Shown: positions 12,427-15,783 of the stretch, one piece after another
Layout of the letters: each line of letters opens with the position of its first letter
Numbering within the stretch: position 1 is the first letter of the stretch
NCBI RefSeq assembly: GCF_001494635.1
Contig: NZ_LOJF01000001.1
Location: 124,001 to 188,000 of the forward strand
DNA length: 64,000 nucleotides
Direction of reading: 5' to 3'
Source: Tractidigestivibacter scatoligenes
GTDB taxonomy: Bacteria > Actinomycetota > Coriobacteriia > Coriobacteriales > Atopobiaceae
Position numbers and translations under genes: made by a program
The notes under the pieces: model-generated
Databases searched by the model: none
The model's input: the letters and a program-made list of their open reading frames with translations, nothing else
Told to the model about the DNA's origin: nothing

Positions 12427-13989
12427 CTACGTGTTCTCGGTGATGTTGTCGCGGATCTGCACCAGGCGGTCGTGGTAGATCTTGTCCTCCTTGCGCTTCT
12501 TGTCCACCACACGGATGCTGTTGAGCATCGTGGCGTGGCTCCTGCCACCAAAGTGCTCGCCAATCTCGGCATAGGTGGCGTCGCAGAGCTCCTTCGAGAG
12601 CCATACGGCGATGTGCCGCGCGTTCATGATGTCCTTGTTGCGCTTCTCGCCCACGAGGTCAGAGTGCGAGATGTCGAAGTACTGCTCGACGGCGCGTTGG
12701 ATCTCCTCGATCTTGTACTGCTTCTCGCCGTTTGGCCACGACTCCTTGGCAAGGCGGTTGATGTCCTCGTGCGAGAGTTCCTCACCGCGCTGCTCGCGGT
12801 GGGTCTCGGCGATGAGGCAGCGCTGGCAGAAGCCCTCAATAACGCGGATGTTGGTGCCCGCACGCTCGGCCATGTAGCGAATGTTGTCCTCGGAGATGGT
12901 GCCCGTGATGGCCAGTCCCACGTGCCCCTCAGCTGCGTCTTCGTGCATGCGCTCGCAGAAGGTGGTGATGAGGCGCAACTTGAGCTCGTAGTTTGGCACT
13001 TGAATCGACGTCGAGAAGCCCGAGTCAAGGCGACTCGTCACACGCTCGTCGAAGGCCGCCTCGGCGCCCAGCTGCGAGGGCGAGCGGTCTGCCGCAAGTA
13101 CGATCTGTTTGCCGGCGCTAGTGAGGTGGTTGAAGGCGTCGAAGAAGAAGTCGATGGTGCCTGCCTTGCCAGCAAGCTTCTGGATGTCATCGATGATAAG
13201 GACGTCGATGTCGTAATAGTGGTCGCGCAGGATGTCCGGCGCCGACCTCTCGCGGTGTGACATGGCCGTGGTGTAGTCGGTGATGAAGGACGAGCCATCC
13301 TTGTATACGCAGACGCGCGTGGGGTCGTTTGCCGAGATGTAGTTCTGGATGGCACGAAGGAGGTGCGTCTTTCCCAGTCCGCTCTTGCCATAGATGAAGA
13401 GAGGGTTGTAGGTGCGGTTCTCGCCGTTTGCCACCTGGAGTGCTGCCTGGTAGGCGAATGTGTTCTCGTCGCCCACGACAAATCGGTCGAAGGTGAGCTT
13501 GGAGTCCATCTCGGAGATATCGTCCACCAGGGGATTTGCCGCGCGCCGCTCGTGGCCTGCGGCCTCGCGCGCGGCGTTCTCGTCAAGCCACGCATCCTCG
13601 GGGTTTCGCTGCAGCGGCGCGGGTGCCGGCGCTGGGGTTGGCGCTGCCGTCTGCGGCGATGGCGCCATCCATCTACGTGCCTCCTCGGGCGTCACTGCCG
13701 AGTTTGGGGCGAGAGGGGCTGCGTCTGGGTCTTGTACAAACGAGATGTCGAGTGTGGTTGGCTCGAAGGCTGCCTCGGTGAGGCACTCGTTGATGACATC
13801 AAGGTTCTTCGAGAGGCGGTTCTTCACCGTACGGCTGTGTGTCTCTACGTGGAGCACGCCGGCATCAAGCGATGTTGGGGCACAGCTGCGCAGCATGGCC
13901 ATGACCGAGCCGGGCAGGTGACGCTTGCTCACCAGGTCGAACATGTCCTGCCACAGTGCCTCGGTGTCTGAGTCGATCTCTGGTTCCAT
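12427..13989 (-). CDS. dnaA: chromosomal replication initiator DnaA, divergent recognition helix
   Basis: AAA+ initiator of 520 aa. It has an N-terminal DnaB-interaction domain (1-85), a Pro/Ala-rich linker (about 95-160), an AAA+ core with Walker A GKSGLGKT at 201-208 and Walker B LIIDDIQ at 264-270, and a C-terminal domain IV. The domain IV signature normally reads GGRDHTTVLHA; here it is GGRSHATMLNS (481-491), so the base-contacting Asp and first Thr are changed. The usual ARPRQ is MNARH (455-459). The ATP site looks intact, so the protein should be functional but with altered box recognition. The nearby motifs TTTTCAACA fit this. Confidence 0.96.
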   Translation of the reverse strand: MEPEIDSDTEALWQDMFDLVSKRHLPGSVMAMLRSCAPTSLDAGVLHVETHSRTVKNRLSKNLDVINECLTEAAFEPTTLDISFVQDPDAAPLAPNSAVTPEEARRWMAPSPQTAAPTPAPAPAPLQRNPEDAWLDENAAREAAGHERRAANPLVDDISEMDSKLTFDRFVVGDENTFAYQAALQVANGENRTYNPLFIYGKSGLGKTHLLRAIQNYISANDPTRVCVYKDGSSFITDYTTAMSHRERSAPDILRDHYYDIDVLIIDDIQKLAGKAGTIDFFFDAFNHLTSAGKQIVLAADRSPSQLGAEAAFDERVTSRLDSGFSTSIQVPNYELKLRLITTFCERMHEDAAEGHVGLAITGTISEDNIRYMAERAGTNIRVIEGFCQRCLIAETHREQRGEELSHEDINRLAKESWPNGEKQYKIEEIQRAVEQYFDISHSDLVGEKRNKDIMNARHIAVWLSKELCDATYAEIGEHFGGRSHATMLNSIRVVDKKRKEDKIYHDRLVQIRDNITENT

Positions 13990-14032: not shown

Positions 14033-14050
14033 GTCTCTCGTGCGAGAGAC
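14033..14050. promoter_or_regulatory. perfect 8-bp-arm palindrome at the dnaA transcription start
   Basis: GTCTCTCG-TG-CGAGAGAC lies 2 bp downstream of the dnaA -10 box and 43 bp before the ATG, spanning the expected start point. It could be an operator or a 5'-UTR hairpin. Confidence 0.5.
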
Positions 14051-14051
14051 C

Positions 14052-14057
14052 ATTATA
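14052..14057 (-). promoter_or_regulatory. dnaA promoter -10 box
   Basis: Read on the minus strand this is TATAAT. A DnaA-box-like TTTTCAACA (14065-14073) sits in the spacer just upstream, which would allow autorepression. The -35 is poor (around GGTAGA). Confidence 0.55.
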
Positions 14058-14064
14058 AGGAAAT

Positions 14065-14147
14065 TGTTGAAAACTCTACCCTATGAACTCTATGAGAGTC
14101 GAGAACCACGAGAAATGTTGAAAACTTTGTCTTAGGACTGTTGAGAA
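14065..14147. other. left cluster of putative DnaA boxes (oriC part 1)
   Basis: Three same-orientation motifs lie at 14065-14073 (TGTTGAAAA), 14116-14124 (TGTTGAAAA) and 14139-14147 (TGTTGAGAA). Read on the other strand they are TTTTCAACA, TTTTCAACA and TTCTCAACA. They resemble the classical TTATCCACA with C-to-A at position 6. They lie between dnaA and the GHKL gene. Confidence 0.55.
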
Positions 14148-14154
14148 GGACTTT

Positions 14155-15255
14155 CTACACGAAGTTCTGCCCCAGCTGTGTGAGGTAGTACTTCTGACCC
14201 ACCTTCTTGAGAATGCCCATCTGTACCAGGTTGGCAAGCTCGCGCGACCACGTGGGAGCCGACTTGCCGTAGGCCCTCACGAGTTCCGTGGGCCCAACCA
14301 TCTCGTGTGCCGAGAGATACTCGAGTATTGCCTGCGAGCGGTCCGAGAGGTTGATGCGACCAAGCTCGGCCGTCCACGCTGGTGGCTGCTGTTCGGGCGC
14401 GGGCGTAGGCACCGGCGTCGAGAATGGAGTTGTGGCCGGTGCTGGCGCTGGGGCCTGCTGCTGGTAGCTTGGCTGTGGATAGCCCTGCTGCGAGTAGAAG
14501 CCCTGCTGGACCTGCGGTTGCGCTGGCTGGTAGTACTGTTGATAACCTGGCATGTAGGTCTGTGTGTAGACTCCTGGCATCTGCTGGGTGGGATATGGAC
14601 TCTGCCCATAGGGCTGTGGCATCTGTGGCATTGCTCCCGCAGGCTTGCCTGGTGCCGCGCACCTCTCGGCGTCCTCCTTTGGCCTGGTAGAGATTGTGAC
14701 GACCGTCCCCCCGGAGATGTTGTCCTCTATGGTGAGGCTACCGCCCTTGTCGGTCATGTACTGCTGCACGTACGGAAGACCAGACCCCACGCCGCGGATA
14801 TAGTGCTTCATCTCCTCGGTTGCGGAGGTCGTGCCGTACTCCATGGCCAGGTCCTTCTCCTGTATACCAGGTCCTTGGTCAGAGAAGCGCAGTGTGTTGC
14901 CCTCGTCGAGGATCGTGATGGTGGGCGCGATGAAGTAGGCGTGGATGAAGTTCTCGACAATCTCGCGAATCACGGTGAAGGGAATGGTGCTTCCCTGCTC
15001 GTGTGCCAAGCGGTTGACGGTTGCGGTGATCTCCTCGAGGTAGCTGCGAATGTCCGTGGGCTCGATGACCACCACTCGTGGCGCGGCCGCCGCGTCGTCG
15101 TAGATGGCGATACGGGCGGGATAGCGCACAGCTCCAAGCTCGCCTTGGGAGGCGTTGCTGCCGCCTTCGCCCTGGGAACTCTCTGTGGACTTCTCGTCTC
15201 CCTTGCCCGCATCTTGGGGCGTGTTGTCGACGAACGGATAGAACGCGTGGTCCAT
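14155..15255 (-). CDS. origin-embedded GHKL ATPase with Pro/Gln/Tyr-rich linker and winged helix
   Basis: A 366-aa protein I cannot assign to a named gene. Residues 90-190 form a histidine-kinase-type GHKL ATP-binding fold: N-box REIVENFIHAY (97-107), G1 FSDQGPGI (124-131), G2 RGVGSGLPYVQQY (154-166), and closing 'GGTVVTISTRP'. There is no His-phosphotransfer domain, which recalls anti-sigma-factor kinases. Residues about 208-295 are a low-complexity, prion-like tract rich in Pro, Gln and Tyr. Residues 300-366 look like a winged helix-turn-helix ('RSQAILEYLSAHEMVGPTELVRAYG', 'LVQMGILKKVGQKYYLT'; given in parts, not contiguous). It sits divergent from rpmH and upstream of dnaA, between two clusters of DnaA-box-like motifs. 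A DNA-binding, ATP-controlled role at the origin is inference. Confidence 0.75.
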   Translation of the reverse strand: MDHAFYPFVDNTPQDAGKGDEKSTESSQGEGGSNASQGELGAVRYPARIAIYDDAAAAPRVVVIEPTDIRSYLEEITATVNRLAHEQGSTIPFTVIREIVENFIHAYFIAPTITILDEGNTLRFSDQGPGIQEKDLAMEYGTTSATEEMKHYIRGVGSGLPYVQQYMTDKGGSLTIEDNISGGTVVTISTRPKEDAERCAAPGKPAGAMPQMPQPYGQSPYPTQQMPGVYTQTYMPGYQQYYQPAQPQVQQGFYSQQGYPQPSYQQQAPAPAPATTPFSTPVPTPAPEQQPPAWTAELGRINLSDRSQAILEYLSAHEMVGPTELVRAYGKSAPTWSRELANLVQMGILKKVGQKYYLTQLGQNFV

Positions 15256-15569
15256 CCCGCTTTACCTCTTGATTCTTTTCACCAGCTCTGACTTTTCAAC
15301 CTCGTTTGAACCTTGGATGAAAACTTTCACTCGGATTTCTATGTGAACGAAAGTTTTCAACAAAGGATGAAACATGGTTGATAACTGGGACTCAACGTAA
15401 AATACCGGCTGGAAAATCATAGCATCAGGAAGAAAGTTGTCAGTAGGTTGGTATGGTCTTTTCGTCTCATGGAAGATTTCTTGCAAAGCTTTTCTACTGG
15501 GGAGTGGCTGGCGCCAAGCCTTACCATGAGACAACCCACTGAGAATCCGTGCAGTTATTCTGCATTAAA
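15256..15569. other. probable oriC core, right cluster of putative DnaA boxes
   Basis: This gene-free region is AT-richer than its surroundings. It contains TTTTCAACC (15293-15301), TTTTCAACA (15354-15362), the inverted GGTTGATAA (15376-15384), and related GATGAAAACT and ACTCAAC fragments. The rpmH and GHKL genes diverge from it, and gene orientation and origin gene content switch here. No canonical TTATCCACA is present. I infer this is the right half of oriC. Confidence 0.55.
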
Positions 15570-15599
15570 TTGACATCTTGACGGAGAGACCCTTACAAT
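15570..15599 (+). promoter_or_regulatory. rpmH promoter
   Basis: TTGACA at 15570-15575 and TACAAT at 15594-15599 are separated by 18 bp, giving a strong housekeeping promoter about 50 bp before the rpmH start. Confidence 0.8.
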
Positions 15600-15648
15600 C
15601 TTTGGGCTTAGTGCTCAAGACATTAGACCCGTATGGGAGGAATACATC

Positions 15649-15783
15649 ATGAAGCGTACGTATCAGCCCAACAAGCGTAAGCGCGCCAAGACCCACGGCT
15701 TCCGCGCCCGTATGGCCACTAAGGGCGGTCGCAAGGTTCTCGCACGTCGTCGTGCCAAGGGCCGCAAGCAGCTCACCGTCTAA
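15649..15783 (+). CDS. rpmH: 50S ribosomal protein L34
   Basis: A 44-aa highly basic protein with the full L34 pattern ([19 protein letters not shown], then [11 protein letters not shown] and a basic tail). GGGAGG at 15635-15640 is the ribosome site. It is the first gene of the rightward rpmH-rnpA-yidD-yidC-jag-rsmG block. Confidence 0.98.

Follow-up and report, generated by a model that had tools for sequence, protein, structure and literature searches.

Locus and Gene Content

The question raised by this locus is why a gene for a predicted ATPase with a C-terminal winged helix should lie directly beside dnaA. The window, by which the whole 64-kb stretch of DNA analyzed is meant, carried gyrB, recF, dnaN, dnaA and an ORF of 366 aa on the minus strand, with rpmH, rnpA, yidD and yidC on the plus strand (Table 1). 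ORF analysis of the window indicated that the 366-aa ORF was a genuine gene. It was on the same strand as dnaA, divergent from rpmH and situated between both, and the position claimed for it by an earlier sequence-only reading was thus borne out by the gene calls. The answer favored here, with a probability of roughly 0.55, is that the gene product would be a regulator under ATP control, acting on its own operon and on the origin.

Table 1. Coordinates in the window of the gene, its predicted domains and the neighboring features, with the evidence for each.
Feature	Position	Strand	Evidence
GHKL-ATPase/winged-helix gene, 366 aa, first of the predicted dnaA operon	14155..15255	-	ORF, homologues, synteny, dN/dS
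Predicted GHKL ATP-binding domain, aa 43–191	14683..15129	-	Pfam HATPase_c, invariant residues, AlphaFold fold
Low-complexity P/Q/Y/A linker, aa 192–301	14353..14682	-	Composition, predicted disorder
C-terminal winged helix, aa 302–366	14158..14352	-	Pfam, conservation, AlphaFold, structure matches
dnaA, box-reading helix GGRSHAT in place of GGRDHTT	12427..13989	-	ORF, Pfam, helix comparison
165-bp gap between gene and dnaA	13990..14154		Contains TTTTCAACA twice and TTCTCAACA
TTTTCAACA sites in gene–dnaA gap	14065-14073, 14116-14124	both -	Pattern search
TTCTCAACA in gene–dnaA gap	14139-14147	-	Pattern search
Gene–rpmH intergenic region, ancestral oriC and operon promoter side	15256..15648		Nearly all relatives have their boxes here
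TTTTCAACA on rpmH side	15354-15362	+	Pattern search
Near-boxes on rpmH side	15276-15284, 15293-15301	+	Pattern search
Candidate sigma-70-like promoter of the gene, CTGACA-16-TATGAT, extended -10	15416..15443	-	Consensus match only
rpmH, divergent neighbor	15649..15783	+	Gene calls, synteny

Domain Architecture

The window protein had a HATPase_c match at aa 93–190 (Pfam, E 1.5e-9, above cut-off), with the ATP-site motifs E98-x3-N102-x2-H105 (N-box), D126-x-G-P-G130 (G1) and G155-x-G-x-G159 (G2). Across 113 relatives, N102, H105, D126, G128, G130, G155, G157, G159, G172 and G183 were invariant or nearly so, and E98, at the GHKL catalytic-Glu position, was conserved in 97%. The N-box Asn, DxGxG, GxGxG and the match to the Bergerat fold place the domain in the GHKL superfamily, and it is predicted from these motifs and the modeled fold to bind ATP. 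The N-box, REIVENFIHA, was similar to that of the GyrB encoded in the same window, and E98 falls at the catalytic-base position of GyrB and MutL. Set against GyrB, MutL and Hsp90, which pair a catalytic Glu in the N-box with a transducer domain bearing a catalytic Lys, the protein had the Glu position and no space for a transducer domain, the linker and winged helix coming next.

No DHp/HisKA-type match was found by Pfam in the window protein; for 21 relatives, the 25 most frequent families likewise included none, and the fold ahead of the N-box consisted of two strands and one helix in the AlphaFold model. Since the DHp domain was absent, a two-component histidine kinase was ruled out. Sensor histidine kinases have the same ATPase fold and belong to the same Pfam family, HATPase_c, but the gene product had no DHp or sensor region, no response regulator was seen nearby, and its catalytic-Glu N-box was of the GyrB/MutL type.

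Several winged-helix Pfam families matched at about aa 304–363, among them HVO_A0261_N (E 1.4e-6) and IclR (4e-4), all under their cut-offs. The winged helix was present in nearly all members, with R306, G321, L340, L343 and G362 conserved among the 113 relatives, and its recognition helix, STAYRDL, was conserved outside Coriobacteriales. AlphaFold predicted a confident ATPase domain and winged helix (pLDDT >90 for most of the length of the latter) joined by a disordered linker, with residues 213–281 mostly below pLDDT 50; for a short-linker relative the mean pLDDT was 87. The winged helix of a relative matched those of MarR and Csa3 with Z 11–13. The sub-cut-off Pfam matches, the AlphaFold model and these structural matches all point to a winged helix. 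The sequence-only reading had proposed a His-kinase-type ATPase without phosphotransfer domain, a linker and a winged helix, and both Pfam and AlphaFold agreed with it.

Judged by profiles and models, the nearest counterparts of the winged helix by itself are Csa3 and MarR-type proteins. Csa3 ranked first among profiles (TIGR01884, best value 4.6e-9) and, with 2wte, among the closest in structure (Z 12.7). It shares the logic of a winged helix coupled to a ligand-binding dimer domain, although its sensor is a CARF domain (cyclic oligoadenylate) and not GHKL, and its context is CRISPR.

The linker (aa ~192–301) was composed of 22% P, 19% Q, 12% A and 9% Y. We take families f1–f3 of the genome sample to be Atopobiaceae (f1, the family of the window), Eggerthellaceae (f2) and Coriobacteriaceae (f3), and their order to be Coriobacteriales. 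In most Coriobacteriales the linker was 86–238 aa long and rich in P, Q, Y, A and G, compared to 11–60 aa elsewhere, and it was short in several genera of Atopobiaceae and Eggerthellaceae. By these comparisons the P/Q/Y-rich linker appears to be an addition of Coriobacteriales only, lost there more than once. Phase separation through the linker, which the sequence-only reading had raised as a possibility, cannot be the core function because only Coriobacteriales have the prion-like linker and it was repeatedly and independently lost there; such a role was rejected as a general mechanism. The linker would be a lineage-specific tether, not the active principle.

Compared with same-genus relatives, dN/dS was ~0.02–0.06 in the ATPase domain, 0.04–0.11 in the winged helix and 0.08–0.21 in the linker (rough values from few codons), and both folded domains appear to be under purifying selection. 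Many members also began with an N-terminal F-Y/F motif followed by a variable stretch (MDHAFYPF in the window, 15232-15255; MKSFYS elsewhere), possibly a short interaction motif.

Known Relatives

No Pfam or NCBIfam model spanned the whole protein, the specific NCBIfam matches were all far under cut-off, and no description of the protein was found among open-licence PMC papers; the earlier designation of the gene as undescribed therefore stands with respect to curated families and this literature. Among solved structures, the best whole-length match was PDB 3lmm, the Corynebacterium diphtheriae protein DIP2311, with Z 14.9 across 221 residues and rank 4 in Foldseek (E 1.4e-6). It likewise has a winged helix after a GHKL-type domain. 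It differs in sequence (14–16% identity), in its longer chain with a further N-terminal part (residues 234–496 aligned) and, with an rmsd of 11.4, in domain orientation. We know of no dnaA linkage for DIP2311. The combination of GHKL domain and winged helix is thus known from DIP2311, and ligand-controlled winged-helix regulators are common; the surprise is the place at the head of dnaA operons.

SpoIIAB and RsbW are also stand-alone GHKL domains without DHp, and an anti-sigma-like kinase or partner-switch protein of their type could control transcription or DnaA by phosphorylation. Profile matches of this kind were weak (NCBIfam spIIAB best 5e-6 among members; PDB 1th8 and others ~1e-4), but histidine-kinase, MutL and SpoIIAB profiles scored roughly alike, all far under their cut-offs, and the window protein reached only 16.3 bits against the spIIAB equivalog cut-off of 135. 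The C-terminal winged helix is foreign to SpoIIAB, and the gene heads dnaA operons, not sigma operons; no sigma or anti-anti-sigma gene was identified among its neighbors, which are rpmH and dnaA. A partner-switch kinase is accordingly quite unlikely.

As a conserved member of a replication operon, the gene resembles dnaN, recF and dciA, unlike which it stands upstream of dnaA. GHKL is not mentioned in a survey of DciA (PMC5109545).

Distribution and Conserved Place

A homologue was found in 171 of the 199 sampled genomes of the window's class at E <= 1e-24, a count that excludes nine genomes with generic kinase-like matches only (E 2e-5 or weaker, within E <= 1e-3). At the level of the phylum, 119/296 sampled genomes had a homologue at E <= 1e-10, while 177/296 were without match. 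The place of the gene was highly conserved: among 115 Actinomycetota loci with the gene, it was co-directional with and just upstream of dnaA in 108 of the 109 showing dnaA, and rpmH was divergent and upstream in 103 of the 111 showing rpmH. The exceptions were seven loci from several genera of Eggerthellaceae (L082, L083, L091, and L094-L097), in which gene and dnaA were inverted together relative to rpmH and dnaN, and one locus (L118, genome G191), in which the gene was inverted singly and diverged from dnaA.

The arrangement extended beyond the phylum. It was shared by all 80 named loci inspected, which were the best 80 of 411 and so biased to good orthologues, and which included MAGs labelled Armatimonadetes CSP1-3, Terrabacteria ANGP1, Bacillota and Clostridia. 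In two phyla chosen through these named loci, the gene occurred in 38/43 genomes (CSP1-3-type phylum) and 21/199 genomes (Bacillota-like phylum), both at E <= 1e-15. By these gene orders, the same place is kept in bacteria of at least three phyla. Absence or relocation in close relatives would have spoken against the sequence-only reading; the place was instead kept across a very large phylogenetic span, and the link to dnaA and oriC proposed there gains support from it. The gene was missing at dnaA in four fetched genomes of family f6 and one of Eggerthellaceae; it therefore cannot be strictly essential throughout the phylum.

Outside Coriobacteriales, the distance from the stop codon of the gene to the start of dnaA was mostly -14 to +30 bp, compared to 69–308 bp in Atopobiaceae; start codons were called by a simple rule, and a few larger gaps are start mis-calls. 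In the deep lineages, the gene thus appears as the first of the dnaA operon, ending about 0–30 bp from dnaA. Distances among the gene products tracked those among the DnaA proteins (Mantel 0.46 vs. a maximum of 0.09 in 200 permutations).

The rpmH–dnaA neighborhood is very conserved in bacteria, and the gene could regulate something else, its place being kept solely by the inertia of this region. Such an explanation is quite improbable, given that seven genomes inverted gene and dnaA jointly, breaking the link to rpmH, that near-zero gaps or overlaps suggest translational coupling, and that no strongly matching gene was found away from dnaA in the fetched loci where the contig permitted the check. 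The conserved place beside dnaA in three or more phyla makes it probable that the product is an as yet unexplored regulator dedicated to chromosome replication or to dnaA. We infer that the gene is co-transcribed with dnaA and that its product affects initiation or dnaA transcription.

DnaA Boxes and the DnaA Recognition Helix

The sequence-only reading had described DnaA-box-like motifs on both sides of the gene. These were real, with TTTTCAACA flanking the gene, but altered: a pattern search for the canonical box TTWTNCACA returned 0 sites in the window, whereas TTTTCAACA occurred exactly 3 times, all in the two intergenic regions flanking the gene; the 2.47 Mb genome in its entirety had just 10 copies. 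Taking the window together with 20 relatives from its family, TTWTCAACA was found at 51 sites vs. ~0.3 expected, 26 of them on the rpmH side and 25 in the gene–dnaA gap, and TTWTCCACA was nearly absent (1 site). Outside Coriobacteriales, 62 TTWTCCACA sites were observed on the rpmH side in 24 class members (0.06 expected), and none in the gene–dnaA gap of the class and phylum loci; the 75 named loci had 201 on the rpmH side vs. 0.7 expected.

The DnaA proteins of Atopobiaceae had Ser or Thr in place of Asp433 and usually Ala in place of Thr435 (E. coli numbering). Residues 432–435 of DnaA contact bases (PMC5043019). Canonical boxes were present in 58/63 genomes with Asp433 vs. 2/25 with Ser, Thr or Asn433 (Fisher p 3e-14 over 88 genomes, a value inflated by shared ancestry), and the Asn-bearing genomes of Coriobacteriaceae followed the same trend (1/4 vs. 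9/11). Across the relatives compared, a switch of box from TTWTCCACA to TTTTCAACA thus appears to accompany the change of DnaA Asp433 to Ser, Thr or Asn, and it is because of this switch that a standard box search came back blank in the window. The joint change of box and recognition helix offers a natural experiment on the co-evolution of initiator and origin site; if such co-evolution is true, the preference of DnaA domain IV for TTTTCAACA or TTATCCACA would depend on Ser or Asp at 433.

GC skew over the surrounding 400 kb gave no origin mark here, so calling the locus an origin rests on gene context and boxes. The description of the gene as embedded in the origin holds mainly for the family of the window; in nearly all relatives the boxes are on the rpmH side only, and the gene stands directly before dnaA.

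Operator Search and Proposed Role

K-mer, dyad and alignment searches of the intergenic regions on the rpmH side yielded no single operator motif common to all lineages. One candidate, TGAAnnnnTTCT, was mostly the start of a coding sequence (MKxF[FY]) and was discarded. Two conserved blocks other than DnaA boxes were found in oriC of class members outside the order of the window (L103, L111, L176, L188, L195, L205, L207, and L232), CCTTGAAAAC.CCTG about 400–530 bp and GATACGG-N7-CAGG.GTTT about 90–190 bp upstream of the gene; the two are in part inverse copies of each other. They are real footprints, yet restricted to part of the class, and neither is put forward as the operator.

The product might instead act mainly and directly as an initiation factor or brake, binding oriC or DnaA in an ATP-dependent manner and remodeling or blocking the orisome, with a transcriptional role secondary or absent. 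Across phyla, the gene is strictly linked to dnaA and the DnaA-box cluster, which is consistent with such an activity, as is the MutL/GyrB-like N-box with its catalytic Glu; but a winged-helix gene that comes first in an operon more often encodes an autoregulator, and oriC showed no universal motif other than that of DnaA. A direct initiation factor is therefore considered rather unlikely.

In the favored reading, the gene heading the dnaA operon would encode an uncharacterized single-copy regulator that is controlled by ATP and acts on both this operon and the origin. The GHKL domains of GyrB, MutL and SpoIIAB dimerize on ATP binding, and the GHKL domain of the present protein would probably do the same. 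This would pair the C-terminal winged helices, which would bind DNA between rpmH and the gene. In nearly all relatives this stretch serves at once as operon promoter region and as DnaA-box cluster of oriC, so a single binding event could set dnaA expression, origin firing or both, according to the ATP or adenylate state.

What is known of regulators of bacterial replication initiation comes mostly from E. coli, Bacillus and Caulobacter, and these regulators are lineage-specific. The place of this gene is kept in a large part of Actinomycetota, the CSP1-3-type phylum and part of the Bacillota-like phylum, which suggests an older layer of control, new to the open literature searched. More tentatively, the product may be a second, dedicated nucleotide switch at the bacterial origin: an ancient protein, binding oriC in an ATP-dependent way, that in several phyla would gate initiation jointly with DnaA and was overlooked since the common model organisms lack the gene.

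Further Box Arrangements

Outside the dnaA region, a divergent pair of TTTTCAACA sites with starts 47 bp apart was located just upstream of dnaB (L243:12948-13003; G000:C1:112948-113003) and was kept in two congeners; from its position and conservation, control of the helicase gene by DnaA is likely. In other genera of the family, an inverted repeat of about 49 bp, TGTTGAAAACTTTC-N~21-GAAAGTTTTCAACA, was found at L263 (G182), L264, L258, and L259, the G182 copy lying in the rpmH-side region. Its form suggests a fixed two-box module with a box longer than 9 bp.
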